This document shows positions 2,269 to 16,853 of a DNA stretch of 64,000 bases, in pieces (positions within the stretch are counted from its first letter, which is position 1; the number at the start of each line of letters is the position of its first letter). Source of the stretch: Roseivirga seohaensis (lineage in GTDB: Bacteria > Bacteroidota > Bacteroidia > Cytophagales > Cyclobacteriaceae); contig NZ_LRPB01000048.1 of assembly GCF_001592945.1 (NCBI RefSeq), forward strand, positions 62,001 through 126,000. Direction: 5' to 3'. Below the pieces are notes generated by a model. The model saw nothing but the letters and a program-made list of their open reading frames with translations, had not been told where the DNA came from and did not search any database. The translations under genes were made by a program, and so were the position numbers.

Positions 2269-2298
2269 AGTTAAAAGATAGAGGATTTACCTTAATGG

Positions 2299-2979
2299 TT
2301 AATTGGATGAAGTAGTAACAGTAGTCACAACAATTGCAGACATCATGGCTACCATAATGGCCGCCTGAATTTCCCGAATACTTTTGTTCACGCTCTGGCT
2401 AATTTTAATATCCTGAGTAACTTCTTTGATCCTCTTCTTCACCACATTGTACTCTTCCTTATTACGAAAAGCTTCTTTAGTAAGGTCTGAAACATCAATT
2501 AAGCTCAAAAGCATTACATCACGTGCTTCTGATTTTGCTCCGCGAAGCATTACATCACTCAGGCGTTGCCTTACTTTATTCTCAGGTGTAATGTTGGTGG
2601 TTGGGTATTTATTGTTCGGAATAATCCAGAGAATCTTATGCTCTTCCTTCCGCAAAATACCTTTATTCTGAAGCCCAAGTAATGTATCCTCTTTAAGTTC
2701 TTTGGCCTGTTTTGACAGAACCTCAATCCACTTTTTGAGTTTACGAGGCTTTGAATTTTTAATCTGATCAATCACTTTATTGATGACCATTTCTACTTCA
2801 TATTCGTCATGAATAAGCTTAAGCTTATCTCCTGATACATCAATCTTTTCGCGAAGTGCCATTTCTAGCAGAATAGCTCCTGCAAAGCCAAAGTACAAGT
2901 GTGTGGAGTCGATAACGAATTGACCTTTTTCGTCATCAAGGGCTATTAATAAAAATTCTTCGATGAGGTTGAGTTGCAT
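2299..2979 (-). CDS. GPP34 (GOLPH3-like) family protein
   Basis: The N-terminal pattern MQLNLIEEFLLIALDDEKG and the helical stretch ending in GAILLEMALREKI match the GPP34 fold. This fold is known from eukaryotic GOLPH3/Vps74, where it binds phosphoinositides and glycosyltransferases. Bacterial members are of unknown function. At 226 aa it is full length. The C-terminal 35 residues form a basic/polar helix followed by a hydrophobic Ala/Val/Met-rich tail, which could insert into a membrane (inference). It lies 30 bp upstream of sufS on the same strand, so cotranscription is possible without implying a shared role. Confidence 0.75.
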   Translation of the reverse strand: MQLNLIEEFLLIALDDEKGQFVIDSTHLYFGFAGAILLEMALREKIDVSGDKLKLIHDEYEVEMVINKVIDQIKNSKPRKLKKWIEVLSKQAKELKEDTLLGLQNKGILRKEEHKILWIIPNNKYPTTNITPENKVRQRLSDVMLRGAKSEARDVMLLSLIDVSDLTKEAFRNKEEYNVVKKRIKEVTQDIKISQSVNKSIREIQAAIMVAMMSAIVVTTVTTSSN

Positions 2980-3068
2980 GTTGTTTGTTTTGCCTTATTC
3001 TTGAAATCTTGGTTTGAACCGTTTTTAAAGGTCGTACTTTTTTTTCTTTCGTTCAAAGCTTAAAGCAT

Positions 3069-3728
3069 CTACTTCAATTTCACCAACTCAGCATTTATAT
3101 CTATCAGTAAGCTATCGCATTTAACGGAAGTTAAACGGTAAATTGCTTCTCTTTCTTTAAGTAGGTTGGTATAGCTTCCAATCATGTTTCTCACCTTATT
3201 ATTTTTTAAAGGTTTATCATCGAATATTTCGTTTTGACCAAATTGAGCACTCCCAAACTGAATATTTTCAATCATATAGGGATAGATTTGCCCATTGACC
3301 AAGTCATGAATAAAATCATCGGCTTTGGCAATTTCGTCATAATGAAAATTGTATAAATCTGTAATAGACGCCCTCAGCTTATAATTACTGATCAAATCTA
3401 AAGAGCCAGCTTTTGCATTGAAATAAGGTGCTGAATAAGTACTTGTGATGTGGCCATATTTTAAATCTTCTAAAGGCCCACTCGCATAAACATAGCGCAT
3501 CAGGAAATCGATGTTACGATTAAGCACTTTGGATGAATCCATAATATGTTTCAACTCTATATTATCATTGGTAATATCATCCCTTAACGAAGTCAAATAA
3601 TTAATTTGACTCTCTCGGTCACGCCTTTTTTCGGCCCAATTCTCCATTGCAAAGGCAATCGTTATGCCGATAACCACCACCAAGAGTTCGATAAAATGAT
3701 TGCGCCAGTTGATTTTACTTTTAGCCAT
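3069..3728 (-). CDS. DUF6090-type single-pass membrane protein
   Basis: The pattern NWRNHFIELLVVVIGITIAF followed by a charged MENWAEKRRDR segment is the hallmark of the DUF6090 family, which is common in Bacteroidota and of unknown function. One transmembrane helix (about residues 10-28) precedes a helical soluble part of about 190 residues. The chosen start is the ATG giving MAKSKINW. An upstream extension to 3773 has no family support and runs into the accA terminator region. The preceding hairpin separates it from accA. Confidence 0.75.
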   Translation of the reverse strand: MAKSKINWRNHFIELLVVVIGITIAFAMENWAEKRRDRESQINYLTSLRDDITNDNIELKHIMDSSKVLNRNIDFLMRYVYASGPLEDLKYGHITSTYSAPYFNAKAGSLDLISNYKLRASITDLYNFHYDEIAKADDFIHDLVNGQIYPYMIENIQFGSAQFGQNEIFDDKPLKNNKVRNMIGSYTNLLKEREAIYRLTSVKCDSLLIDINAELVKLK

Positions 3729-3765
3729 AAAACAATATTTACAACTGAAAGTAGCTAAAAACAAA

Positions 3766-3795
3766 AGAACCACAAAGCGCTGGCCTTGTGGTTCT
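3766..3795 (-). terminator. intrinsic terminator of accA
   Basis: A perfect 10-bp stem (AGAACCACAA paired with TTGTGGTTCT) with a 10-nt loop is followed, on the minus strand, by TTTGTTTTT. It lies 22 bp past the accA stop codon. Confidence 0.8.
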
Positions 3796-3817
3796 ATAAT
3801 CAGAATGTTTTTGTTTT

Positions 3818-4765
3818 TTATTCTATTACTGAGCCCATGTCAGAGAACTTCTCAATACGTAAATCAATACGCTCATTCGCATCCATGGTGCTTAACGCTT
3901 TAAGTTCTTCCAGAATATTCTTTTTAAGTTCGTTACACATCCACGGAATATTTCGGTGTGCTCCGCCAAGCGGTTCTTTTATAATTCCGTCAATTAAACC
4001 AAAGCCCTTCATGTCTTGAGCGGTAAGTTTCAACGCCTCGGCAGCTTGCTCTTTATAGTCCCAGCTTCTCCATAAAATAGAAGAACATGATTCTGGAGAA
4101 ATAACAGAGTACCAAGTATTTTCTAACATCAAAACTCTATCTCCTATGGCAATTCCCAAAGCTCCACCCGATGCACCTTCACCAATAATGATACAGATGA
4201 CAGGCACTTTAAGCATAAACATATCTCTGATATTCCTAGCAATAGCTTCGCCTTGACCTCGCTCTTCTGCCTCGAAACCTGGATATGCGCCAGGAGTGTC
4301 AATCAAAGTAACAATGGGAATATTAAATTTCTCGGCCATCTTCATTAAGCGAAGTGCTTTTCTATAGCCTTCGGGGTTGGCCATACCGAAATTACGCATC
4401 TGGCGTTGTTTGGTATTTCTACCTTTTTGTTGGCCAATAAACATTACTGTTTGACCATCAACGGTACCCAAACCGCCCACCATTGCTTTATCATCTTTAA
4501 CCGTTCGGTCGCCAAACAGTTCGATAAAGTCATCGGTAATACTATATATATAATCCAGTGTATAAGGTCTATCTGGATGACGGGAAAGTTGTACTCTCTG
4601 CCATCTGGTTAGGTTCTTATAAGTTTCCTCCTTGAGGGTTTGGATTTTCTTTTCTAGAGATTTTATGTCCTCGCTCACGTTGACCTTACTGTTTTCAGCA
4701 AGCTCTTTCATTTCAGCAAGTTTCTCTTCAAGTCTGACAATTGGTTGTTCGAATTCCAAAAGCAT
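3818..4765 (-). CDS. accA: acetyl-CoA carboxylase carboxyltransferase subunit alpha
   Basis: Subunit alpha of the carboxyltransferase half of acetyl-CoA carboxylase, which makes malonyl-CoA for fatty acid synthesis. Marks are an N-terminal helical region ([13 protein letters not shown]), [12 protein letters not shown], the crotonase-type core with [16 protein letters not shown], and [15 protein letters not shown]. With the ATG at 4765 it is 315 aa, the normal size. A longer frame to 4852 adds 29 unrelated residues and is rejected. A -7-like TAAATTTG lies at 4787-4794 on the same strand. accC is in this window at 60.4 kb, but accB and accD are not seen. Confidence 0.95.
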
Positions 4766-4890
4766 TAGTTTAGTTGATTCAATGTACAAATTTAATATAT
4801 AAACCCATGCCCACCTTATAAGAGAATGAAAATTTCGATGAAGGCAGGTCAATTCTTCATTTTTATGTACTTTTCGGTAAATCCCGTAAT

Positions 4891-5970
4891 ATGCTTCCCG
4901 ATAACAATATTGTAACGATTAAAAACATACTGTTACTTTTTATGGGCATCGTCATAGTGCTCGTAATCAAAGAATTATCTGCACTTCTAATTCCATTGAC
5001 CTTTGCCATTTTCATAGGCATTTTGCTACAGCCTGTTATTGCTTATCTGGACAGAAAAGGTTGGCCCTACATGCTAAGCATTACGGTAATAACGGTACTT
5101 ACTTTAGGTTTTGTATTTCTTGTCGGCTTAATCGTGTTCGATACGGGCTTACAAATTGTAGATCAGAAAGATAAACTCTTAACGCAGATTGGAAATAAGC
5201 TTAATAGCTTAGTGATTCAATTCGAGAGTATTCCGGGCTTTTCGGCCCTAAAAGAGCGCGATTTCACCGAAACTTTATACCAAATTCTTTCTCCTGAAAT
5301 GATGCTAAACACCTCGGGAATGGTAGCCACTGAAGTGGGGAATTTTGTATTCAACCTTGTGCTTTCTGCCATTTATTTGGTGGCGGTTTTGGGCAGTATT
5401 GTTAAGTATGAAAAGTACATCAGCTATTTAGAGGGAGATGATGATATTGGAAAACAACGTTTACTCAAGGCTTTTGTAGAAATTAAAGATGCTGTGGCCA
5501 GTTATATGAAGGTGAAGTTTTTCACCAGTTTAAGCACGGGGGCTTTCTTTGGAATTATTTGCTGGAGCTTTGGAGTGGACTTCGCGCTATTCTGGGGTTT
5601 TTTGGCTTTTATGCTCAATTTTATTCCTACTGTTGGGTCAATTATGGCCACCATCCCTCCTGTTCTGTTAGGCCTTATTCAGATAGACAATGGTTCCAGC
5701 TACCTGTTTTTCATTTTACTTCTGATTGCCACACAGTTTGTTTGGGGTAATGTTGTAGAACCGCTTATGATGGGCTCTAAAGTGGCCTTGAATACCGTAG
5801 CCGTTATTTTAGGGCTTGTAATCTGGGGGTATATTTGGGGAATTGCCGGAATGCTATTGTCTGTGCCTTTAATTGTATTGGCCAGAGTAATATTGGCTCA
5901 AATTCCAGATGCCGACCTTATTGTAAAACTGATGGGGCGAAGTCAGCTTGATGCTGACGAGACGGATTAA
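4891..5970 (+). CDS. AI-2E family (PerM/YdiK-type) transporter
   Basis: Polytopic membrane protein of 359 aa with about eight helices. A pair of helices at the N terminus (residues 10-50) is followed by a soluble loop of about 80 residues, then helices to the C terminus. The family signature is in the second half: [17 protein letters not shown], then [13 protein letters not shown] and LSVPL. Members are efflux-type transporters, and named ones export autoinducer-2 or Na+/H+, but the substrate here cannot be told. Transcribed divergently from accA, with 125 bp between them. Confidence 0.85.
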
Positions 5971-6035
5971 AGGTTCAGTTTTAAAGAACAGCACCTTTTT
6001 TACTTTAGATTGAAATTCAGAAACAACGAAGAAAA

Positions 6036-6209
6036 ATGAAAAAGAAATCACTTATACTCATTGTTGCGGGCATGTCTGTTATTGTTGCTAGTCAATTCAT
6101 AACACACTTTGTTTCTACATCAGACTTTCTGGGTGGAGCTCTTTTAGGCATTGGTATTGGTATAATATTTTTGGGCTTAGTTCGGCTAAAACCTAAGTCT
6201 GCCAAGTAA
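6036..6209 (+). CDS. small two-helix membrane protein (57 aa)
   Basis: A short frame begins ATGAAAAAGAAATCA and encodes a lysine-rich N terminus, then two hydrophobic stretches (about residues 5-20 and 30-47) separated by a short polar turn, ending RLKPKSAK. The positive-inside pattern at both ends is what a real small membrane protein would show. It lies 65 bp after the AI-2E transporter gene on the same strand and could be the end of that transcript. No family is recognised, and it rests on composition and context only. Confidence 0.5.
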   Translation: MKKKSLILIVAGMSVIVASQFITHFVSTSDFLGGALLGIGIGIIFLGLVRLKPKSAK

Positions 6210-6263
6210 AACTTAGCAGTCATATTATTCTGAAGCTCCCAAAAGCTAAAAACTGAAGATCGC

Positions 6264-7583
6264 CTATTTCTTCGTTTTCAAATCCACCCCTTTATAAAGC
6301 CTATAAATCAAAACGGCTGCTCTTTTCGACTGCTTTGGCAAAGCACGAAGGTCTCCAGTTTCATTGATGGTATGATCGTCAGCGCCTGACATTCCCATGG
6401 CATCAATTCCCATTTCGATATGACCTGCAGTAAAGGAAATATCAGCTGCACCTGCATCGGCAGGGTTTACTGCTGTTACTTCTCCAAAACCCAAATCTTG
6501 ACTCACTTTGCTAAACAAGTTCATGAGTTGATAATTTCCTTCGGTTGGCGCAAAAGGCGGATAACCTTCAGCAAAAGTGATTCTAGCGTTGGTGCCTGGA
6601 AGATGATTGGCCACAATTCGCTTCATGGTTTCTTGGGTTCTTGTAATTTGTTCTGGCGTTAAGGCACGAATATCGCCAGTGACCGTTACATCTTTCGACA
6701 CTACATTATTCTTTCCAAAAGCGGTTCCAGTATTTTCCGACTTGTTGTAACTCACTTCAGTTCCACCTGCAATCATTCCAGAGTTGAAGGTTAAATATTC
6801 TTCTCCTGCTAACTCATCATAAAACTGATAGAGAATTCTAGAGGCTTCGTAAATGGCACCCGCTCCTACTTTTGGCTTAAAAATTTGTGAGGAATGAGAG
6901 GCATTACCCGTTACTGTTAATGTCCATCCAGAAGAACTTCTTCTGGCTACGTTTACTGTGGCAGGGTTTCCGTCTCCGTTTTCAAACCCCAAAGCTACAT
7001 CTGCCCATTTTGCTGCATCAATCAATGCCTTTTTAGATTCAGAAAGGGGACTTCCTGAAAGTTCTTCATCGCCTGTCATCACCACAGTAATGTTCATATC
7101 CTTCAACAAACCAACACTGTGCAAAGCCGCCAGCGATTGAAGGATAATTACATCACCACCTTTCATGTCGGCAATGCCCGGGCCTTTGATGGTGTTTTCA
7201 TCTACTTGAGACCATTTCTGATTCGGACTGTCGGGTTCGAAAACGGTATCTAAATGACCGATCATTAAAATCTTCTTTCCTTTTCCACCTTCAATACGCG
7301 CTACTAAATGGCCAGCACGATTGAATGACGATCCATCTACCCATTCTACTTCCATACCCAGCGCCTTGAACTTTTCCATCAAGACATCGCCTACTTGACG
7401 CACCCCTTCAAAATTCATGGTGCCGCTATTGATGTTGATCAACTCTTTCAGTAGGTTCAAGTATTCATCATTATGAGTATCGACATACTGAATTAGTTTC
7501 TTTTCGGTTTTATCAGTTTGTGCCGTTAATGGCGAAGCAATGATGAGTGCAACTAAAGCAAACAGAATAGATATTTTTCGCAT
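6264..7583 (-). CDS. secreted M20 family metallopeptidase (glutamate carboxypeptidase-like)
   Basis: Zinc peptidase of the M20A/CPG2 group, predicted to cleave a C-terminal residue (often glutamate) or a small amide in the periplasm. The signal peptide MRKISILFALVALIIASPLTAQ supports the ATG at 7583, and the longer frame to 7721 is rejected. Metal and catalytic motifs are in order: IGHLDTVFEP, ADMKGGDVIIL, GDEELSGSPLS and the C-terminal DDHTINETGDL. A dimerisation domain sits between them. The N-terminal TDKTEKKLIQYVDTH region begins right after the signal. 439 aa is normal for the family. The physiological substrate is unknown. Confidence 0.85.
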   Translation of the reverse strand: MRKISILFALVALIIASPLTAQTDKTEKKLIQYVDTHNDEYLNLLKELININSGTMNFEGVRQVGDVLMEKFKALGMEVEWVDGSSFNRAGHLVARIEGGKGKKILMIGHLDTVFEPDSPNQKWSQVDENTIKGPGIADMKGGDVIILQSLAALHSVGLLKDMNITVVMTGDEELSGSPLSESKKALIDAAKWADVALGFENGDGNPATVNVARRSSSGWTLTVTGNASHSSQIFKPKVGAGAIYEASRILYQFYDELAGEEYLTFNSGMIAGGTEVSYNKSENTGTAFGKNNVVSKDVTVTGDIRALTPEQITRTQETMKRIVANHLPGTNARITFAEGYPPFAPTEGNYQLMNLFSKVSQDLGFGEVTAVNPADAGAADISFTAGHIEMGIDAMGMSGADDHTINETGDLRALPKQSKRAAVLIYRLYKGVDLKTKK

Positions 7584-7821
7584 TGTATATTTTTTACGAT
7601 CGTTATTTAAAAGGAAGGTGTTGTTAGCGTAAAAACTGAGCTTACGGCCTGTCCTTTTTTCAAAATTGAAATTAAGAAAGATTATCGAGATGACGCATTG
7701 GGTTGTAGTTTGTCTTAACAATTCAGCGGATAAATGGTATATGTTGAAAAGTAATTTAGTGAATTAAAAAAAGTCCGCTCAAGAAAAATATCTTTATCAT
7801 TGCGGAAAATCTGGATAAGGC

Positions 7822-8823
7822 ATGGCAAAAAGGAAGGCAGCAGTTTCAAGTAGAGGTACATCTAAAAAGAAAACCACTTCGGGAAGAAAAGGGAAATCAG
7901 GAGGTTTTAGCCTTTGGAAATTCTCTTTAGGGCTTATCATCCTTATCGCCTTGGGCTATGGCTATCTGGCTATTAAAGAAGAAAAGCTAATTCCTTCGTT
8001 TTTTGATGAAGAAGTAACTCCAGTTTTATCACCTGAAGAACTTGATTCTAAACAGGAAATTCCAAAAACAGAAAAAACCACTCCTACAAAGCAGGAAGAA
8101 AGTAAAGTAGATTTTGATACTTACGACCTCTACTTCACCAAAGCCTTTGATTTTGCGTGGCCAGCTTATGAAACATCGCAGGCCATAATAGAAAGACCTT
8201 ATTACACTTTGCGTTATAGCGAAGAACATGAGCAAGCTGTATGGGTTGCCTACACCCTATTTGCCGATAGTTTAAAACAAACCACCTTTGAAAGAAAAGA
8301 TGATTTTAGAGAAGACAGTAGAGTAAAAACAGGCTCAGCTAGCTTAAATGATTACAAAGGAAGTGGTTATGACCGAGGCCATTTAGCACCAGCAGCCGAT
8401 TTTTCCTATAGTGAATTTGCCTTGAGCCAGTCCTTTTTTATGAGCAATATGAGTCCGCAAGACCCATCTTTTAATCGCGGAATTTGGAAAAAACTAGAAG
8501 ACCGAGTAAGAACTTGGGCGATTGAAAACGATCAGATTTATGTAGTTACAGGTCCTGTATTGAATAAGAAATACAAAACCATAGGTTCGAACCAAGTTTC
8601 TGTACCTGAATATTACTACAAGATTATTCTGGACATGAGAAAACCAGAAGTTAAAGCCATTGCCTTCTTAATGAAGAATGAAGCAAGTTCAGCACCACTT
8701 TCGTCATTCGTAGTCACTATAGACAGTGTTGAACAACTGACTGGGTTAGACTTTTTTCCGGGCATTTCAGACGAACTGGAAAACGCTCTGGAAAGTAGTT
8801 TAATGACTTCGAAATGGTTTTAA
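7822..8823 (+). CDS. membrane-anchored DNA/RNA non-specific endonuclease
   Basis: Beta-beta-alpha metal nuclease of the Serratia NucA/EndoG family. The catalytic motif DRGHLAPAADF carries the general base H187, and MSNMSPQDPSFNRGIW supplies the metal-ligand asparagine region. The N terminus is Lys/Ser/Arg-rich (residues 1-30) and is followed by one hydrophobic helix (about 32-50), so the enzyme should be tethered to the inner membrane with the nuclease outside. A Pro/Thr/Glu-rich linker precedes the domain. Many Bacteroidota carry such an anchored nuclease, perhaps to degrade or feed on extracellular DNA (inference). Confidence 0.9.
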   Translation: MAKRKAAVSSRGTSKKKTTSGRKGKSGGFSLWKFSLGLIILIALGYGYLAIKEEKLIPSFFDEEVTPVLSPEELDSKQEIPKTEKTTPTKQEESKVDFDTYDLYFTKAFDFAWPAYETSQAIIERPYYTLRYSEEHEQAVWVAYTLFADSLKQTTFERKDDFREDSRVKTGSASLNDYKGSGYDRGHLAPAADFSYSEFALSQSFFMSNMSPQDPSFNRGIWKKLEDRVRTWAIENDQIYVVTGPVLNKKYKTIGSNQVSVPEYYYKIILDMRKPEVKAIAFLMKNEASSAPLSSFVVTIDSVEQLTGLDFFPGISDELENALESSLMTSKWF

Positions 8824-8840
8824 CCTTAATAATTTCAAAA

Positions 8841-9440
8841 TTAACGGCAGTGCTTTGCCAGTGCCTCAGAAGCCTCAGAAGAACCTAAAGCTTTAGATCG
8901 AGTAAAATCCTGACAAGCAGTTTTAGTCTGATTTAGAGCAATCTTTAGCGCTCCTCTGTAAAGGAATGCTTCAGCGTTGTCATTGTCAAAGTTAATGGCC
9001 TGATTGTAGTTTTCCATAGCTTTCTCAAAGTCGCCTTTTTGATGATAGCTTCGGCCTCTGAGCATGTACGCATCAGAACGCAAACCATCCAACTCTATCA
9101 CTTTATCAAAAAATATGATCGCTTTGTTGAATTCTTTTTGATTGTACCAGAGCTTACCCATGCTTAAATTGGCATTCAGATTATCTCCATCAACATCTAA
9201 AACAGCTATAAAATCAGCTTTAGCCTTTTCCAACTGCTTTAATTCTTCATATGCCCTTCCACGATTATAAAGAGATTTAATATCTTTTGGATTGGTTTTA
9301 AGATATTCAGAGTAAGCCTCAACCGCCTCTTTAAAATTCCCTTCACTGTATAGCTGATCTCCCTTTCTAGTAACGTCATCATTACAAGAAAACAAGAAAG
9401 CAATTAGAACTAAAACCAAAAGAGATAAGCGATTTTTCAT
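8841..9440 (-). CDS. TPR-repeat lipoprotein
   Basis: A lipoprotein signal with lipobox LFSC (cysteine at residue 19) is followed by four to five tetratricopeptide repeats covering nearly the whole protein. Examples are GDQLYSEGNFKEAVEAYSEYL, SLYNRGRAYEELKQLEKA and AYMLRGRSYHQKGDFEKAM. TPR proteins are protein-protein scaffolds, so a specific role cannot be assigned. The gene converges on the nuclease gene with a gap of 17 bp. A good Bacteroidota promoter candidate lies upstream at 9526-9556. Confidence 0.85.
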   Translation of the reverse strand: MKNRLSLLVLVLIAFLFSCNDDVTRKGDQLYSEGNFKEAVEAYSEYLKTNPKDIKSLYNRGRAYEELKQLEKAKADFIAVLDVDGDNLNANLSMGKLWYNQKEFNKAIIFFDKVIELDGLRSDAYMLRGRSYHQKGDFEKAMENYNQAINFDNDNAEAFLYRGALKIALNQTKTACQDFTRSKALGSSEASEALAKHCR

Positions 9441-9525
9441 TGAATACGATATAAATGATTTTGAAGAATGAATCCGTTTCAGACAATGTCTAAGATTGAT
9501 TCAGCCAATAATGGTTTAAAGGCTG

Positions 9526-9556
9526 CAAAAGTATTTGTTTAAACCGAATACAACAA
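9526..9556 (-). promoter_or_regulatory. Bacteroidota-type promoter of the TPR gene
   Basis: On the minus strand, TTG, 20 nt, then TACTTTTG matches the phylum consensus TTG-N19-21-TAnnTTTG. It would give a leader of about 80 nt before the start codon. Confidence 0.55.
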
Positions 9557-9568
9557 TGTTTTTAACAG

Positions 9569-9592
9569 AAGAAGGGCCCGAAGGCCCTTCTT
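9569..9592. terminator. GC-rich hairpin, probable terminator of dapD or of the TPR leader region
   Basis: GAAGGGCC pairs with GGCCCTTC around a CGAA loop, with two further A-T pairs. A short T tract on each side is weak, so its role as a terminator rather than another structured element is uncertain. It lies just upstream of the TPR promoter. Confidence 0.45.
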
Positions 9593-9674
9593 TAGGTAGC
9601 GTGAAAGCACTCTACCCAACCATAATATGGTCAACTCAAAACAACACTTGTTATTACACAAAGCTGATACCAAA

Positions 9675-9705
9675 AAATAAACCACTGAAATTCAGTGGTT
9701 TATTT
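9675..9705 (-). terminator. intrinsic terminator of dapD
   Basis: A 13-15 bp perfect inverted repeat (AAATAAACCACTG paired with CAGTGGTTTATTT) is followed on the minus strand by a run of T. It lies 50 bp beyond the dapD stop. Confidence 0.75.
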
Positions 9706-9754
9706 ATTTAACTCTGTTGATTTTTTTCTCAGTACGAGAAATATATTCTCATTT

Positions 9755-10570
9755 TTACACAGCAACATTATTTTCGCGTAAAGCTTCGTTTAAAGAAGTT
9801 TTTTTATCTGTGCTCTCCTTTCTCTTACCAATAATCAAAGCTGCAGGCACATTATAGGTTCCTGCAGGAAACTCTTTTGCATAAGAGCCTGGAATTACCA
9901 CAGACCTTTCAGGTACATACCCTTTATACTCTACTGGTTTTTCGCCTGTTACATCTATAATTTTAGAGCTTCCAGTTAAGGTAACGTTTGCGCCTAAAAC
10001 AGCCTCTTTACCAACTCTCACCCCTTCTACTACAATACATCGTGAGCCAATAAAGGCGCCATCTTCAATAATTACTGGTGCGGCCTGAACAGGCTCTAGA
10101 ACTCCTCCAATACCAACTCCACCACTTAAGTGTACATCTTTACCAATTTGGGCACAACTGCCCACTGTAGCCCAAGTATCAACCATAGTACCCGCATCTA
10201 CATATGCTCCAATATTCACATAAGACGGCATCATCACTACACCGCTGCTAATGTATGCACCATATCGCGCTACAGCATGTGGTACTACGCGGATTCCCTT
10301 GCTTGCATAGCCAGTTTTCAACCTTATTTTATCATGAAATTCGAATGGACCAACTTCAATTGTTTGCATTTTTTGTAATGGAAAATACAGAATCACTGCT
10401 TTCTTAATCCATTCATTCACTTGCCAGCCATCTACAGTCGGTTCAGCGACTCTTATATCGCCACGATCAAGATCTTCGATCACCGTTTTTACGGCCAAAA
10501 CCGTCTGTTTCTCTTTTAATAATTCTCGGTTGTCCCAAGCCGCTTCAATGATCTTCTTTAATGCCTCCAT
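9755..10570 (-). CDS. dapD: 2,3,4,5-tetrahydropyridine-2,6-dicarboxylate N-succinyltransferase
   Basis: Cytoplasmic trimeric left-handed beta-helix acyltransferase of the succinylase branch of lysine and meso-diaminopimelate synthesis. The N-terminal helical domain (KKIIEAAWDNRELL) is followed by hexapeptide repeats: GVVMMPSYVNIGAYVDAGTM, GVGIGGVLEP and GAFIGSRCIVVEGV. The length of 271 aa is typical. dapA, an earlier step of the same pathway, is at 57.8 kb in the window but is not linked to it. The gene stands alone, divergent from the glycosyltransferase gene. Confidence 0.95.
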   Translation of the reverse strand: MEALKKIIEAAWDNRELLKEKQTVLAVKTVIEDLDRGDIRVAEPTVDGWQVNEWIKKAVILYFPLQKMQTIEVGPFEFHDKIRLKTGYASKGIRVVPHAVARYGAYISSGVVMMPSYVNIGAYVDAGTMVDTWATVGSCAQIGKDVHLSGGVGIGGVLEPVQAAPVIIEDGAFIGSRCIVVEGVRVGKEAVLGANVTLTGSSKIIDVTGEKPVEYKGYVPERSVVIPGSYAKEFPAGTYNVPAALIIGKRKESTDKKTSLNEALRENNVAV

Positions 10571-10599
10571 TAGTAATTAGAAATTTTCAATAAATTCGA

Positions 10600-11727
10600 A
10601 TGTTCATGAACAAGACCAAACTTCTAATTGCTTCTACTTTAAAGCCCATTGACGATTCTCGCATGTACGAGAAGTTTGGTATTTCATTGGCGAAAACAAA
10701 CGAATATGAGGTTAATATCATAGGCTTTACGTCAAAAAATACGTTAACTCACAATTCAATTCACTTTTTCCCACACGGACCTTTCGGAAGAATGTCTTTC
10801 GATAGGGTTAAAAACCCGTTCAAAACCTTTAAAATTTATATTAAAGTAAAGCCTAAAATAATAATATGTAATACCCATGAATTACTGATAGTTACATCTA
10901 TATACAAAATATTATTTGGTGGTCGAATCATCTATGATTTGAGAGAAAACTATGTGAAAAACATTCGGAACACTAACGTTTTCAATCCTATACTCAGACC
11001 TTTTATTGCAGCTTATGTGAGAGCAAAAGAGTTAATCACTAAACCTTTTTTTGATGGTTTTATCATGGCAGAAAGAATTTACACTGAACAACTAAGCTTT
11101 GTTCCTCCCTATAAATCCATCGTGATTGAAAACAAGTTTATGCCTGTAGAAGTAACTGAGCATAAGTTAAAAACCAATTCAGAAAACACTGTTTTGCTAT
11201 ATTCAGGGACGATTTCAGCATCGAACGGAGTATTTGATGCCATAAAAATTACTGATGAGCTTCATAAGCTTGATTCAAACATAAGGCTGCGGATTATAGG
11301 CTACTGTGCTCTCAAAAAAGACCTTAGAGAACTTCAGGAAGCCATTTCGGACAAAGACTACATAGAGTTAATTGGAGGCGACTTCCTTGTTCCCCACCAA
11401 CAGATTATTCAAGAAATAAAAATCGCAGACTTTGGCTTTGTGCTCAAAAAACCAAACAATGGTATAAATGATGACAAAATACTGACGCGCCTATTTGAAT
11501 ACTCCGCCAATAAGCTTCCTATGCTTCTTTTGAACAACCCTACTTGGGTTAAATTCTGTAATGAATTCAATGCTGCCATACCAATAAACCCTAATTATTT
11601 CAACCCTATTGAGATACTGGCTTTAATGAAGAATACTAACTTCTATACCCAAGGAAATACCAAATCTAGTTTATGGGAAAGTGAAGAATCTAAACTACTC
11701 GATTTCATAGCTCAATTTCGCGATTAA
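10600..11727 (+). CDS. glycosyltransferase family 1/4-like protein
   Basis: GT-B type protein of 375 aa. The N-terminal Rossmann half starts KLLIASTLKPIDDSRMYEKF and contains IIICNTHELL and IIYDLREN. The C-terminal half begins after ENKFMPVEV with LLYSGTISASNGVFDAI and contains IRLRIIGYCALKK, FGFVLKKPNNGINDD and EYSANKLPML, where the sugar-nucleotide binding Glu motif would be. The acceptor is unknown, perhaps a surface polysaccharide or lipid. It stands alone rather than in a polysaccharide locus. A second ATG lies 6 bp downstream of the chosen one. Confidence 0.75.
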   Translation: MFMNKTKLLIASTLKPIDDSRMYEKFGISLAKTNEYEVNIIGFTSKNTLTHNSIHFFPHGPFGRMSFDRVKNPFKTFKIYIKVKPKIIICNTHELLIVTSIYKILFGGRIIYDLRENYVKNIRNTNVFNPILRPFIAAYVRAKELITKPFFDGFIMAERIYTEQLSFVPPYKSIVIENKFMPVEVTEHKLKTNSENTVLLYSGTISASNGVFDAIKITDELHKLDSNIRLRIIGYCALKKDLRELQEAISDKDYIELIGGDFLVPHQQIIQEIKIADFGFVLKKPNNGINDDKILTRLFEYSANKLPMLLLNNPTWVKFCNEFNAAIPINPNYFNPIEILALMKNTNFYTQGNTKSSLWESEESKLLDFIAQFRD

Positions 11728-11731
11728 AATA

Positions 11732-11747
11732 TTTAGATTAATCGAAA
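11732..11747. promoter_or_regulatory. candidate DtxR-family operator, distal copy
   Basis: TTTAGATTAATCGAAA is a 16-bp palindrome with a single mismatched pair. It matches the proximal site at 11830-11845 at all but a few central and edge positions. It lies just after the glycosyltransferase stop. Confidence 0.45.
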
Positions 11748-11829
11748 TAATAATTTCGAAAAAACCAACCCACTGTAAATAAGTTATAAACACACGTTTT
11801 GATTAAATTTAGTTAATGCATAATTTTTT

Positions 11830-11845
11830 ATTAGACCAATCTAAA
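11830..11845. promoter_or_regulatory. candidate DtxR-family operator overlapping the promoter
   Basis: ATTAGACCAATCTAAA contains the interrupted palindrome TTAGA-N4-TCTAA. It ends 3 bp before the -7 element at 11849, so a bound repressor would block RNA polymerase. The TTAG...CTAA half-sites resemble known DtxR/IdeR boxes. Confidence 0.5.
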
Positions 11846-11848
11846 TAC

Positions 11849-11856
11849 TATATTTG
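11849..11856 (+). promoter_or_regulatory. -7 promoter element of the DtxR gene
   Basis: TATATTTG matches TAnnTTTG. It is 40 bp upstream of the ATG at 11896. A clear -33 TTG is not seen. Confidence 0.5.
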
Positions 11857-11895
11857 CGCTATAACCAGCCCTTACCTATAGCCACAAACACTCCT

Positions 11896-12555
11896 ATGTT
11901 AAGCTTTGTAGAAGAGAATTATTTAAAGGCCATTTACCATCTTTCAGAAGCTGGGAAGCGTCCAGTGAACACCAACGCATTGGCAGAAGAAATGAAAACG
12001 GCTCCCGCTTCCGTAAGCGACATGATTAAGCGACTCTCTGAAAAGAGAATGGTGGATTACCAAAAATACCGAGGTGTAAATATTTCGGAAAAGGGAAAGA
12101 TTAAAGCACTGCATGTCATTCGGCAACACAGAATTTGGAAAGTGTTTTTAGTAGAAAAACTCAACTTTCAATGGGATCAATTGGACGAAGTGGCCGAACA
12201 GTTAGAGCACATCAAATCTCCCCTACTCTTTCAGCGACTAGATGAGTTTTTGGGATTCCCTAAATTCGATCCGCATGGTGACCCAATTCCTGATGAAAAT
12301 GGTCAGCTGATAGAAAAGCGTAAAGACCCAATAGCTCAACTTCCAGTAGGTACTGCTGGTATTGTGGTAGGTGTTAATGGATCGAGTGCTTCGTTTTTAA
12401 AGTATTTAGATAAAGTGGGAATTTCCATCGGTACAAGATTACAGATTGTGGACAGAATGGAGTTTGACGGCTCTGTAGACATAACTATTGACGGTAAGAA
12501 AACGATTACTATTTCCCCCACCGTTGCGGAGAACATCTTACTTTCAGAAGCTTGA
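11896..12555 (+). CDS. DtxR/MntR family metal-dependent transcriptional regulator
   Basis: Fe2+ or Mn2+ responsive repressor of 219 aa. From the N terminus come a winged helix (FVEENYLKAIYHL, then APASVSDMIKRLSEKRMVDYQKYRGV), a dimerisation and metal-binding helical domain (IRQHRIWKVFLVEKL, LEHIKSPLLFQRLDEFLGFP with the HGDPIP motif) and a C-terminal FeoA/SH3-like domain from about residue 145. The ATG at 11896 fits the family start, while a TTG at 11854 would overlap the promoter. Two related palindromes upstream suggest autoregulation. No transporter gene is adjacent, so the metal cannot be read from context. Confidence 0.85.
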   Translation: MLSFVEENYLKAIYHLSEAGKRPVNTNALAEEMKTAPASVSDMIKRLSEKRMVDYQKYRGVNISEKGKIKALHVIRQHRIWKVFLVEKLNFQWDQLDEVAEQLEHIKSPLLFQRLDEFLGFPKFDPHGDPIPDENGQLIEKRKDPIAQLPVGTAGIVVGVNGSSASFLKYLDKVGISIGTRLQIVDRMEFDGSVDITIDGKKTITISPTVAENILLSEA

Positions 12556-12737
12556 TTAACGTACAATTGATAAAGAGATCATTTCGAAGAAAAAACGGAA
12601 ATGAAACTCACTGTTGAACAGACACTCAGACATAGTTATTTGCTAAATCTCTTGACAACATACTACAGAAGATATAGAGGTTGCCAAAAGAGATTGTTTT
12701 GAAGTCAACTTGAGCATTCCTAATTATCAAATTACAT

Positions 12738-12745
12738 TACCTTTG
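12738..12745 (+). promoter_or_regulatory. -7 promoter element at the mnmE start
   Basis: TACCTTTG matches TAnnTTTG and lies only 4 bp before the ATG, so the transcript would be leaderless or nearly so. The -33 match is poor. Confidence 0.35.
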
Positions 12746-12749
12746 CCCT

Positions 12750-14129
12750 ATGCGCGCACTAGCTCAAAATGAAGACACCATTATTGCATTGGCTACACCA
12801 CAAGGCGTGGGTGCCATTGGCGTAATCCGTTTATCTGGAAAAGAAGCCATAAGCATTACCAATGCGGTTTTTAAGGGAAAAGACCTTACAAAACAAGAAT
12901 CGCATACGATTCATTTTGGCACAATTCGCGATGGCGAGAAGATTCTTGATGAAGTGCTTGTCTCGCTTTTCATTGCGCCAAAATCCTTCACCAAAGAGAA
13001 CGTAATTGAGATTTCTTGCCACGGATCGAGTTATATTATACGCCAGATTATTCAGTTGCTAATCCGTAAAGGGGCGCGACCAGCCAAACCGGGAGAGTTC
13101 ACCAAACGCGCCTTTATGCACGGCCAATTTGATTTGGCGCAAGCCGAAGCCGTAGCCGACTTGATCAATGCAGATTCGGAAGCGGCCCACCAAACTGCCC
13201 TTAGCCAAATGCGTGGTGGTTTTTCTGATGAAATTAAACGCTTGCGCGAAGAGCTGATTCACTTTGCATCCATGATTGAGCTTGAACTCGATTTTGGGGA
13301 AGAAGATGTAGAATTCGCCAGCCGCGAGGATTTAACAAACTTGGTCAACCGACTTCTGAAAGTGATCAATGCGCTGATTCAAAGTTTTGATTTGGGCAAC
13401 GTGATCAAAAACGGTGTACCGACCGTGATTGCAGGTAAACCCAATGCCGGCAAGTCTACCCTACTGAATGCCCTACTGAACGAAGAAAAAGCCATTGTCT
13501 CTGACATTGCAGGTACGACTCGGGATTTTATTGAAGACGAAATCATTATTGGTGGCATCGCCTTCCGTTTTATCGATACGGCTGGTTTACGTGAAACTAC
13601 CGATGTTATTGAAGCCATGGGCGTAGAGCGTACCCAAGCGAAAATGAAAACCGCCTCGCTGATCATTTATCTGTTCGATTTAGCGGACACTTCTATTGTG
13701 GAAGTGAACAAAGAAATCAATTTGCTTGAAAACGCTGGTGTACCCTTTTTAAAATTGGCCAATAAGCTGGACAAGGCCGATCCCACTTTTATTGAAACAC
13801 TTCAAGGCCAGCATCCCGATATGCTGTTTCTTTCGGCTAAAGATCCAGAACAGGTAGAAAAGCTCAAAGAGCGAATCCTCGAGCTTGTGAATATGGACAA
13901 GTTTAAGAAAGGCGATACTGTAGTGACGAACATCCGTCATTATGATTCCCTACTTCAAACCAAAAACGCTTTAACTGCAGTCATCGAAGGCATTGACAAC
14001 CAAGTCACTAATGATTTTGTCGCCATGGACATCCGCCAAAGCCTCCACTACCTTGGGGAGATCACAGGAGAAATCACTACTGATGATTTATTAGCGAATA
14101 TTTTTAGCAAGTTTTGTATCGGAAAGTAA
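12750..14129 (+). CDS. mnmE: tRNA modification GTPase MnmE
   Basis: With MnmG it makes the cmnm5 modification of the wobble U34 of certain tRNAs. An N-terminal folate-binding domain (DTIIALATPQGVGAIGVIRLSG) precedes a helical domain interrupted by a Ras-like G domain: GKPNAGKST near 229-237, DTAGLRETTD, and NKLDKA. The C terminus ends FSKFCIGK with the catalytic cysteine of the CIGK motif. 459 aa is full length. A -7 promoter element lies directly before the ATG. mnmG is not in the window. Confidence 0.95.
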   Translation: MRALAQNEDTIIALATPQGVGAIGVIRLSGKEAISITNAVFKGKDLTKQESHTIHFGTIRDGEKILDEVLVSLFIAPKSFTKENVIEISCHGSSYIIRQIIQLLIRKGARPAKPGEFTKRAFMHGQFDLAQAEAVADLINADSEAAHQTALSQMRGGFSDEIKRLREELIHFASMIELELDFGEEDVEFASREDLTNLVNRLLKVINALIQSFDLGNVIKNGVPTVIAGKPNAGKSTLLNALLNEEKAIVSDIAGTTRDFIEDEIIIGGIAFRFIDTAGLRETTDVIEAMGVERTQAKMKTASLIIYLFDLADTSIVEVNKEINLLENAGVPFLKLANKLDKADPTFIETLQGQHPDMLFLSAKDPEQVEKLKERILELVNMDKFKKGDTVVTNIRHYDSLLQTKNALTAVIEGIDNQVTNDFVAMDIRQSLHYLGEITGEITTDDLLANIFSKFCIGK

Positions 14130-14133
14130 AACT

Positions 14134-14661
14134 GTTGGAAACACAGATTATACGGATTAATGGATAACACAGATTTCTGCCTATATTGAACTATGCCTAG
14201 TGAAGACTATCAGTTCAAAGACCTCACGCATCAAATAATTGGTGCAGCTATGAGAGTTCATTCTTTTTTGGGAAATGGTTTTCAAGAGGTGATCTATCAA
14301 CGAGCATTGGCCTACGAATTCAATCAGGCCAACCTTAATTTCCAAAGAGAACAAGAACAATATATCTTTTACAGAGAATGCGCTGAACCAATAGGCACCA
14401 GAAGAGCAGACTTTATTGTTGAAAACAAAGTGCTTGTTGAACTCAAGGCCACTACAAAGCTAGAAGAAGTTCATAAAGCACAAATTATCAATTACTTGCG
14501 CGCTTATAGGTTTGAGGTTGGACTTCTCATCAATTTTGGAGAAAAGAGCCTCTTCTTTAAAAGGTTCGTTATGAACCTTGACGACAAAGCCGACACTACC
14601 AAACCTTAGCCAATCTGAGCAATCCCAAAATCCATCAAATCTGTGATACAGACAAAAAAAG
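14134..14661 (+). mobile_element. gene-carrying copy of a repeat unit (GxxExxY cassette)
   Basis: The left arm (14134-14181) and right arm (about 14610-14661) match the two halves of the gene-less tandem units that follow. The GxxExxY gene sits exactly between them. So this unit reads as repeat-left, gene, repeat-right, and the short units look like copies without the gene. Mobility is inferred: no transposase, target duplication or attachment site is visible. Confidence 0.5.
14193..14609 (+). CDS. GxxExxY protein (PD-(D/E)XK nuclease-like fold)
   Basis: The defining motif GFQEVIY lies in the context FLGNGFQEVIYQRAL (about residues 26-40). A nuclease-like core RADFIVENKVLVELKA (about 70-87) follows, with Asp, Glu and Lys spaced as in PD-(D/E)XK enzymes. 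The family is widespread in Bacteroidota, and its function is not established. 138 aa is slightly above the common 120-130. The gene is flanked on both sides by a repeat that continues downstream as five gene-less units, so it may ride in or serve the repeat. The stop lies at the right repeat arm. Confidence 0.85.
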   Translation: MPSEDYQFKDLTHQIIGAAMRVHSFLGNGFQEVIYQRALAYEFNQANLNFQREQEQYIFYRECAEPIGTRRADFIVENKVLVELKATTKLEEVHKAQIINYLRAYRFEVGLLINFGEKSLFFKRFVMNLDDKADTTKP

Positions 14662-15267
14662 GTAGAAACACAGATTCATAAGGATTAATGGATAACACAG
14701 ATGCTTGCTTAAAACTTTTTCTACTTCAATCCTAAATCAGCGTAATCCCTAAATCCATCAAATCTTTGATACAGACAATAAAAGTTAGAAACGCAGATGA
14801 TAAGGATTAATGGATAACACAGATGCTTGCTTAAAACTTTTTCTACTTCAATCCTAAATCAGCGTAATCCCAAAATCCATCCAATCTTTGATACAGACAA
14901 TAAAAGTTAGAAACGCAGATTCATAAGGATTAATGGATAGCACAGATGCTTGCTTAAAACTTTTTCTACTTCAATCCTAAATCAGCGTAATCCCTAAATC
15001 CATCAAATCTGTGATACCGACAAAAAAGTAGAAACACAGATTCATAATGATTAAAGGATAACACAGATGCTTGCTTAAAACTTTCTCTACTTCAATCCTA
15101 AACCAGCGTAATCCCTAAATCCATCCAATCTTTGATACAGACAAAAAAAGGTAGAAACACAGATTCATAAGGATTAAAGGATAGCACAGATGCTTGCTTA
15201 AAACTTTTTCTACTTCAATCCTAAATCAGCGTAATCCCTAAATCCATCCAATCTTTGATACAGATAG
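14662..15267. repeat. five tandem 122-123 bp units without the gene
   Basis: Units start at 14662, 14784, 14906, 15028 and 15151, each beginning GTAGAAAC or GTTAGAAAC. Each has a left arm with GGATTAATGGATAACACAGAT (or near variants), a 30-nt middle TGCTTGCTTAAAACTTT..., and a right arm with AATCCCTAAATCCATC and GATACAGAC. Units differ by a few substitutions. Across some unit junctions AATCTGTG faces CACAGATT and can form a hairpin. The array fills the space between two convergent genes and contains no credible coding frame. Confidence 0.9.
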
Positions 15268-15274
15268 CAGAAAC

Positions 15275-16273
15275 CTACCTTGTGAAAATATGATGCTGGG
15301 TAGCTGTAAAATAGTCTCTGAAGATTTGATTGAGCACAGCATTCTCTCTGCTTGCATTCACCCCCAAATAGGGTTGTAAACCAATAATGGCTACCGATAA
15401 GTTTTTAACAGAAGCAGAGGCGGCTTGGTGCACTTCCTGAATAAAGGCTTCAGTAAACTGATTACACTGTGCAGTCAGGTTTTCCACTTGCTGAGCGAAA
15501 GCATAGACTTGCTGATTTGCAGCATCAATTACCGATTTTAAGTCAGTCAACCAATTCTCATCTTTTACCCGAGCCTTCGCCAAAAAATGTTCTGCCATAC
15601 CAATGTAGTTTACCCAAAGGGTGAGGTCGGCAAAAACTGAAAAGTGCGTTTTAAAAATTGGCTGAGGAAGATGAAACTGATTGTAGACAAAGCTGTACTC
15701 CTCTCCTACTAGCACATCCTTCACTTCGAAGGAATGAGTAGCCGAGGCCTTTAGCCCCATCGTGTTCCAGTCATTGATTATGCGGACTGTGTTGGCCGGA
15801 ATTACAAAAGATAGGAATTTTGGTGTACCGTCTTCATTTACCTGCTCAACACCATTTTCTACGATCTTAGCATTTAAAGTAAAATGGGTTAAATAAGGCG
15901 CACCTGTTGCATATCGCCAAGTGCCCTTCAGTCGGTAGCAGCTCCCCTCCTTTTCGGCAGTACCAAACATGCCTCCACTTCCACCAAAAATTGCTGCCTG
16001 AGCAAAAAGTTCCTTTGCCACTTCGGGCTGAAGGTTTCCGATAAAGAAATTGGCACCACTGCAAAGGGTCACAGTCCAACCTAAGCTACCGTCAATTCTG
16101 GCCAATGATTGAAGTTGCTTTAGCCCTTCGGTTAAAGGCATTTCTCTTCCTTTAAATGCCTTCGGTACCCAAATATTCCACAGGTTTTCTTTGGCGATCC
16201 AGTCCAGCACTTCTGGTCTAAAAACAGGTGCATCACTACACCATTCTTTAAGCTGTTGCATATGCATTCCCAT
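15275..16273 (-). CDS. acyl-CoA dehydrogenase-like flavoprotein in the TPP-riboswitch operon
   Basis: Acyl-CoA dehydrogenase fold, closest in feel to the group D flavin monooxygenase/dehydrogenase branch. An N-terminal helical domain (DGSLGWTVTLCSGANFF) is followed by a beta domain with the FAD-site pattern GTWRYATGAPYLTHF and DWNTMGLKASATHSFEV, then a helical C terminus. 332 aa is a little short. Of several in-frame starts, the GTG at 16282 is less likely than the ATGs at 16273, 16267 or 16261. All overlap the end of pnuT, so translation is coupled. The shared TPP leader suggests a role in thiamine or precursor handling. The substrate is unknown. Confidence 0.7.
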   Translation of the reverse strand: MGMHMQQLKEWCSDAPVFRPEVLDWIAKENLWNIWVPKAFKGREMPLTEGLKQLQSLARIDGSLGWTVTLCSGANFFIGNLQPEVAKELFAQAAIFGGSGGMFGTAEKEGSCYRLKGTWRYATGAPYLTHFTLNAKIVENGVEQVNEDGTPKFLSFVIPANTVRIINDWNTMGLKASATHSFEVKDVLVGEEYSFVYNQFHLPQPIFKTHFSVFADLTLWVNYIGMAEHFLAKARVKDENWLTDLKSVIDAANQQVYAFAQQVENLTAQCNQFTEAFIQEVHQAASASVKNLSVAIIGLQPYLGVNASRENAVLNQIFRDYFTATQHHIFTR

Positions 16274-16853
16274 TTTCTTCACTCATTAATTTGCGCCATT
16301 TCAAATAACCCGATGTACCCATAATAAACAAGAACACCGACATACCTGCGTAGATATAGAGGTCTTTATAAATCAAAAGCGGTATTGAAATGATGTTGCT
16401 AATATTCAAATAAACCCAGTTTTCAATCTTGCGTTTGGCCATTAACCACATACCCGCCCAGGCAAAAGCACTTACAGTTGCATCCCAAATGGGCACATCA
16501 GAATCCGTATGGAAGTTGAGCCAATAACTCATCAACCCAAAACAGCCGAGCACTATTAGAATAGCCTTTAAATGTTCTTGCTGAGTAGAATTACTAATGG
16601 GTGCTTCTGCTTTTTGTTTGCCGTATTTCCAGTATAGCCAGCCATAAATACTCATGACCAAATAATACATATGCAGCAAAATATCGGCATACAATGCACT
16701 TTGGTAAAGTACCCACATACTCATGAGTATGGCCACTATTCCGAATAAGTATGTATTGATATTATTTTGACGTGCAAGTATCACCTGCACAATACCAAAA
16801 AGCGTTCCTAGGCCTTCAAGCCAAGTAAGTTCTGTTAGAAATTCCTCTATCAT
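16248..16853 (-). CDS. pnuT: PnuC-family transporter, probable thiamine transporter PnuT
   Basis: A vitamin uptake facilitator of 201 aa with about seven helices. PnuC motifs are visible: SIYGWLYWKYG, WDATVSAFAWAGMWLMAKRKIENWVYLNISNIISIPLLIYKDLY. PnuC imports nicotinamide riboside, but the gene here is preceded by a clear TPP riboswitch. Bacteroidota homologues under that control are assigned to thiamine (PnuT). The thiamine call therefore rests on the riboswitch, not on the protein alone. First gene of an operon with the flavoprotein gene downstream. Confidence 0.85.
   Translation of the reverse strand: MIEEFLTELTWLEGLGTLFGIVQVILARQNNINTYLFGIVAILMSMWVLYQSALYADILLHMYYLVMSIYGWLYWKYGKQKAEAPISNSTQQEHLKAILIVLGCFGLMSYWLNFHTDSDVPIWDATVSAFAWAGMWLMAKRKIENWVYLNISNIISIPLLIYKDLYIYAGMSVFLFIMGTSGYLKWRKLMSEENGNAYATA

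Follow-up and report, generated by a model that had tools for sequence, protein, structure and literature searches.

REPINs and their RAYT proteins form a system of short palindromic hairpin units, which are dispersed and also lie in tandem clusters beside one gene, as do the repeats examined here (PMC3116915). They come in several flavours, each with its own protein, which is a further likeness to the present element. REPINs are also not known to make a short target-site duplication (TSD), again like the elements examined here. MITEs are short non-coding copies with terminal inverted repeats that are dispersed between genes, a description shared by the gene-less copies reported below, and free-standing homing endonuclease genes are inserted between genes without breaking them and are present or absent among relatives, as is also the case here. 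The intervening sequence (IVS) of 23S rRNA is a hairpin with an S23 ORF which is excised by RNase III; like the present element, it is patchily distributed and is a hairpin of terminal inverted repeats whose loop holds a single small ORF (PMC4990558).

The window analysed here is a stretch of 64,000 nucleotides from Roseivirga seohaensis (GCF_001592945.1, contig NZ_LRPB01000048.1, positions 62,001 to 126,000 of the forward strand), part of a 4.15 Mb genome labelled G000. A preliminary description of this DNA had proposed a GxxExxY gene nested between the halves of a repeat and followed by five tandem gene-less units built of both halves. This layout was borne out, as the left half (14134-14183) and the right half lie on either side of the ORF and both recur in the five downstream units (Table 1), with a start-to-start spacing of 121-123 bp and a TRF score of 1113 (93% matches). 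All five units were recovered by a covariance model at E values of 4e-15 to 4e-19, window unit 1 being among the 22 copies of its training set. The arms of the window element are built as CACAGATT..GGATT..GGAT..CACAGAT and its near reverse complement. Each arm comprises three or four short words and, because these stand in near reverse complement, the whole element can fold as a long interrupted hairpin. The hairpin-forming ends proposed earlier, CACAGATT and AATCTGTG, do pair in the unit folds, completely in one unit and in mismatched or shorter form in units 1, 2, 4 and 5. Comparison with congeners showed that the 3' side of mnmE is a variable site within the genus.

Table 1. Features of the GxxExxY locus and its neighbours (positions in the window).
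Feature	Position	Strand	Evidence
mnmE, upstream neighbour, same strand as GxxExxY gene	12750..14129	+	family profile, congener comparison
Left arm of gene-bearing copy (GTTGGAAACACAGATT..GGATTAATGGATAACACAGAT) and leader	14134..14192	+	direct repeat family, sequence
GxxExxY protein gene, 138 aa	14193..14609	+	family profiles, purifying selection, AF2 model
Right arm of gene-bearing copy (..AATCCCAAAATCCATCAAATCTGTGATACAGACA)	about 14610..14660	+	repeat family, sequence
Gene-less hairpin unit 1	14660..14777	+	repeat family, fold, covariance model
Gene-less hairpin unit 2	14783..14899	+	repeat family, fold, covariance model
Gene-less hairpin unit 3, full CACAGATT / AATCTGTG pairing	14905..15022	+	repeat family, fold, covariance model
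Gene-less hairpin unit 4	15026..15143	+	repeat family, fold, covariance model
Gene-less hairpin unit 5	15149..15266	+	repeat family, fold, covariance model
Acyl-CoA dehydrogenase-like gene, downstream neighbour, opposite strand to GxxExxY gene	15275..16282	-	family profiles

The ORF belongs to the GxxExxY family, scoring 132 bits against TIGR04256 (curated cut-off 35) and 125 bits against PF13366 PDDEXK_3 (curated cut-off 22), and its earlier label as a small PD-(D/E)XK-like protein was upheld by the residues D73 (14409-14411), E83 (14439-14441) and K85 (14445-14447). Across 64 related proteins D73 and E83 are invariant and K85 is conserved in at least 90%, so that a conserved D and ExK lie within the fold. 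The AlphaFold2 model of the protein (pLDDT 90.6) was compared by Foldseek and, among the matches listed, SSO0001, a Cas4, was the nearest fold (E 1.2e-4, TM 0.50-0.57) and the only entry passing E <= 0.001. It was followed by LHK-Exo, lambda exonuclease and AddAB, with tRNA-splicing endonucleases lower down at ranks 17, 20 and 34. The model thus resembles Cas4 and lambda-type exonucleases, and the protein is a predicted nuclease. No solved structure was matched by sequence similarity at E <= 1, PADLOC gave no defence-system label other than a weak Cas4 resemblance (best E 0.0022), and the only PHROGs match was a weak one (E 0.0006), to a family with no assigned function. The Ka/Ks of the gene, 0.037-0.064, indicates purifying selection; the protein has therefore been kept.

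To place the window among other GxxExxY genes, 153 loci were collected. Eighty were kept from a set of at least 575 named proteins related to that of the window; the other 73 came from the own genome and its relatives and are part of the places listed in those genomes. Near full length was found in 149, and 132 were distinct with 200 nt on either side, the rest being dropped. The flank inverted-similarity score of these 132 loci had a median of 29, compared with a median of 17 for 1981 control placements made within them; 97/132 reached 22 (4.0% of controls), 50/132 reached 35 (0/1981 controls) and 35/132 stayed below 22. When neighbour ORFs were used as a control, 6/57 reached 22 and none of the 57 reached 28. 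In an earlier inverted-repeat test, 39/99 loci beat all 15 partner swaps and 66/99 beat all 20 shuffles, the swapped-partner comparison telling us less, since arms are common to loci of one type. Ends resembling TGTCTGAATC and GATTCAGACA recur within the window's clade, in members of Bacteroidota, Cyanobacteriota, Chloroflexota, Pseudomonadota, Spirochaetota and others. When up to one mismatch was allowed within a distance of 300 nt, 38/99 loci had the left end, 38/99 the right end and 24/99 both; the motifs stood on the wrong side in 16/99 and 14/99 loci, some of which are explained by tandem copies (by eye). On these sequence comparisons, the tie of GxxExxY to hairpin repeats that had been suspected from the window extends far beyond it, and the hairpin-flanked gene is not a local oddity of this genome but recurs across many phyla.

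The words of the arms differ between loci. The own genome has four GxxExxY genes, each lying between repeats of another word (flanks read and words counted): GGATT at the window, TGATT at L003, GAATT at L004 and CAAAG/CAGAG at L001. A word label, from classes that the analyst defined after inspection of the flanks, could be assigned in 96/149 loci, the other 53 being dropped, and on the FastTree protein tree these labels changed 9 times, whereas 200 shuffles gave at least 28 changes and on average 35. With the relatives only (n=45 labelled), there were 7 changes against a shuffled minimum of 15. In a control region 600-770 nt away, 10/149 loci were labelled, loci with short flanks being counted as unlabelled. 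Each GxxExxY protein clade was thereby shown to carry its own short repeated word, clade and word being inherited together.

Gene-less copies coexist with gene-bearing ones well outside the window, as the preliminary description had led us to expect; 39 with clear ends were found in 27/153 loci. Nineteen of them were aligned with three copies from the window's genus, and the same words were present throughout, the anatomy being common to gene-less copies from different phyla. In the consensus hairpin, with its 21 pairs, standard pairing is seen in 93.7% of cells. Cells changed on both sides of a pair numbered 15 compared with 6.8 in shuffles (0/500 as high), while the number of pairs with double-sided change was matched by 52/500 shuffles and that of further pair types by 25/500, which is not convincing, and the RNAalifold covariation term of +0.4 gave no support for covariation. 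The covariance model built from this alignment found dispersed copies in 21/59 relatives and in 19/20 of the genomes behind the named loci. In a count over 20 genomes, which were picked for having the gene and searched with a model of one word type whose training set includes some of the copies, 30/87 listed repeat places lay within 300 bp of a GxxExxY gene (about 0.06% would be expected by chance) and 57/87 lay further away, and only 21/73 GxxExxY genes or pieces had a listed copy within 300 bp.

The five units of the window had been read as deletion derivatives of the gene-bearing copy. This reading was ruled out by the tight tandem cluster and by the roughly 30-nt middle of the units (GCTTGCTTAAAACTTTTTCTACTTCAATCC), for which inspection by eye revealed no clear equivalent in the gene-bearing copy; the units are thus not simple deletion derivatives. 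They are 92-97% identical to each other, compared with 81-87% to five copies elsewhere (own genome and two congeners); as the units are closer to each other than to other copies, the array in this genome is taken to have grown through local tandem duplication. Two observations had been set against a link between repeat and gene in the preliminary description: tandem expansion of the array, which was found, and arms occurring genome-wide with no tie to GxxExxY, which was not, since a GxxExxY gene is present in 20/21 relatives with repeat copies compared with 16/38 without.

In the own genome, the 122-bp unit was found only at the window locus and in one other region, on contig C5, where it stands at either end of some 10 kb of DNA with type I restriction-modification genes. 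This island (L015, G000:C5:128500-143500, 2290-12981) carries hsdR, hsdM, hsdS, an AAA ATPase and small genes between direct repeat copies and is close to a tRNA-like stretch. Because the relative G014 has a single repeat copy at the corresponding place (L235), repeat copies may serve as recombination ends for restriction islands. Other arrangements were also seen. In G040, the repeat is found between tandemly arranged genes (L246, L247) that encode about 800 aa and resemble each other at both the N and the C terminus, many of them at a spacing of about 2.5 kb. In G064, a GxxExxY gene is split by an inserted 421 aa ORF with hairpin copies on either side (L249, G064:C1:1037463-1039177), and a second cluster resembling it lies at 4.64 Mb.

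The junction between topoisomerase subunits B and A (parE|parC) was compared in 19 congeneric genomes, with types assigned by eye. A GAATT-type element of 449-493 bp is present in five (G000, G014, G006, G015, G007) and a CAAAG-type element of 444-471 bp in three (G004, G011, G012), the GxxExxY gene of G004 being in pieces. Decayed remains were found in G016 and G009, short gene-less remains in G010 and G018, and the junction is empty (1-27 bp) in 7/19. G000 and G004 differ in element type here, yet their ParE fragments match at 100%. G014 and G006 lack the L001 element and G004 has a truncated form of it, the polymorphic stretch at this site exceeding the arm-to-arm length. The same junction in congeners was thus shown to hold different contents, whether empty, filled, decayed or of another type, and the empty sites anticipated in relatives exist at both places.

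At the window site, G014 has a gene-less copy, a gene-bearing copy and further gene-less copies, and G004 has gene-less copies, hsdM, a KAP NTPase, hsdS and hsdR, and then copies with a GxxExxY gene. Of the 17 genomes with a full-length match, the remaining 14 showed no repeat in the sequence examined past mnmE, although G015 carries a lone TGTCTGAATC at that place. The type I restriction cluster and KAP NTPase of G004 lie between repeat copies at 3046-12154 of L232 (G004:C45), and the cluster shares 85% identity over 365 bp with the C5 island in G000 at the left junction, although the genes of the two are different. Extra mnmE 3'-end fragments were seen at G014:C13:43002, G002:C5:1239307 and G007:C81:224308 and 219153, which might be leftovers of island integration.

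The GxxExxY gene at the window is out of step with its flanking genes in synonymous divergence. Between G000 and G014 its pS is 0.30 (0.20-0.40) compared with 0.44 and 0.47 for the flanking genes, and between G000 and G004 it is 0.63 (0.51-0.76) compared with 0.41 and 0.32. Flanking duplications scoring at least 22 were found in 6/36 clear-ended loci compared with 2.1% of 420 mismatched pairs, and those scoring at least 43 in 4/36, the highest score among the mismatched pairs being 30. The four strongest, of 32-57 bp, derive from the start or the end of a gene, and in L176 the 3' end of a histidine-kinase gene occurs three times, split by a short remnant and a gene-bearing element (by eye). 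Long duplications of this kind at some loci fit recombination better than transposition. No short TSD was convincingly shared by 52 elements, the best shared offset giving 5 matches of 3 nt where 8 shuffles gave at most 4, and classical transposition with a short TSD was rejected on this ground.

The strongest rival explanation takes these junctions as its starting point. A free-standing, homing-type nuclease would cut empty junctions and repair would copy the element in, so that it recurs at the same junctions, the arms only making the insertion harmless in the transcript. The topoisomerase junction speaks for it, being occupied in 12/19 genomes by two word types when decayed copies and remnants are counted (by eye), as do the histidine-kinase 3' ends that flank the element in L074, L100 and L176 (by eye; L176 confirmed), an hsdM-like gene upstream in L056 and similar junctions in other loci (by eye), the discordant synonymous divergence and the long flanking duplications. 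Dispersed gene-less copies, however, would not be expected from homing, and no known homing enzyme was recognised among the 50 fold matches listed. We regard homing at gene junctions as unlikely.

A second explanation, which we find distinctly unlikely, is that another enzyme, such as a Y1/RAYT transposase, moves the arms and that GxxExxY is cargo or a helper. Palindromic repeats without a TSD are typical of the Y1 world, Y1 genes were found in 43/59 relatives with three matches in the own genome, and copies can exist without GxxExxY, as in G040, which has 45 covariance-model matches (both strands counted) and no GxxExxY gene. Against this, G021 and G050 have repeat copies and no Y1 match, the own genome's two listed Y1 matches, of three in all, are found on different contigs from the element (C9 and C33), and cargo status alone would leave the match between word type and GxxExxY clade unexplained.

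It is less probable again that the hairpin is an RNA-level element like the 23S rRNA IVS, its transcript being processed by an enzyme such as RNase III and the protein acting on the RNA. Its orientation would suit such a role: among the 108 distinct loci with two near neighbours (from 153), the neighbours are on one strand in 82, GxxExxY is on that strand in 74/82, and the upstream gene has the GxxExxY strand in 94/108. Four-helix-bundle genes (TIGR02436, the S23 family) in the same relatives also lie between word repeats, outside rRNA (L128-L157), with a flank score of at least 22 in 15/24 scorable loci and the strand of both neighbours in 21/23. Many of them adjoin thiolase and acyl-CoA dehydrogenase genes (by eye; checked in L140 only), and these loci are for that reason not independent. 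The tRNA-splicing endonucleases among the fold matches point the same way, but the best folds are DNA nucleases and the covariation is weak. A known RNA family was rejected, as Rfam gave one sub-threshold match at 14000-15400 (22.5 bits against a gathering score of 38) and none at the gathering score in 14 loci.

That the locus is a mere local tandem repeat beside an unrelated gene can be dismissed: the tandem expansion of the five units would fit it, but GxxExxY genes of many phyla have flanks of the same anatomy, and the flank-score and word-tree results already contradict it.

We infer, with a probability of about 50%, that the locus is a copy of a widespread small mobile hairpin element whose own PD-(D/E)XK nuclease acts on its arms and promotes its spread. 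The elements lie between genes, in most cases with the orientation of the adjoining genes, and would probably be expressed by read-through. Their sole gene, in the loop of the hairpin, encodes the GxxExxY putative nuclease; the gene-less copies would behave like MITEs. Because GxxExxY clade matches word type, the nuclease could recognise or cut own-type arms, whether single-stranded or in a cruciform. Its action might promote the spread of gene-bearing and gene-less copies alike, as has been proposed for RAYTs and REPINs. Phage or plasmid carriage was rejected, as GxxExxY had no match in 50,697 phage records and was found in 8/72,556 plasmid records; this near-absence is unusual for a mobile gene and counts against the element reading. 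So do the gene-less copies of G040, the 57/87 listed copies far from a GxxExxY gene, the loci with low flank scores or with end motifs on the wrong side, the neighbour ORFs that reach 22, the weak covariation, the long flanking duplications, the overlong polymorphic stretch at L001 and the single fold match at E <= 0.001.

More broadly, and tentatively, GxxExxY proteins could be dedicated mobilising nucleases of phylum-spanning hairpin elements without a TSD, with clade-matched words and gene-less copies moved in trans, as a PD-(D/E)XK counterpart of RAYT/REPIN, and the S23 hairpin elements would be a parallel class. If so, many genes without an assigned function and many nameless intergenic repeats would be one kind of mobile element, it would be explained why GxxExxY genes sit between genes of one strand, and the S23 hairpin elements would link the intervening sequences of 23S rRNA to a much larger, unrecognised between-gene group. 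To our knowledge, the PD-(D/E)XK enzyme class has not previously been seen in such a mobilising role. Searches of open-access full text found no function for GxxExxY (PF13366, TIGR04256, PDDEXK_3), none of five consensus stretches of the repeat and no prior description of the element; a related paper (PMC3733652) reportedly deals with GTAG/CGTC palindromes. The element looks like an undescribed class of small mobile DNA between genes, with or without a nuclease gene.

Compared with known systems, the gene-less copies are dispersed, short and non-coding with terminal inverted repeats, as in MITEs, but differ from them in having no short TSD shared by the 52 elements and no known transposase. 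Insertion between genes with empty alleles in relatives, found at the topoisomerase junction and the L001 site, is the pattern of homing endonucleases, from which the element differs by its hairpin arms and dispersed gene-less copies. The 23S rRNA IVS is approached through the four-helix-bundle genes of relatives, which lie in similar word repeats; unlike it, the present element lies outside 23S rRNA, between mnmE and an acyl-CoA dehydrogenase-like gene, carries a gene of another protein family than S23 and has dispersed gene-less copies. In contrast to REPIN/RAYT, in which RAYT is a Y1 transposase, the present gene is of the PD-(D/E)XK type and lies inside the hairpin, the arms are about 40-50 nt of iterated words, and related ends (TGTCTGAATC/GATTCAGACA) occur across many phyla. 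The element is not a member of REPIN/RAYT, since its enzyme is a different one and none of the Y1 matches listed for the own genome shares a contig with it. In its behaviour, however, REPIN/RAYT is its closest parallel (PMC3116915).
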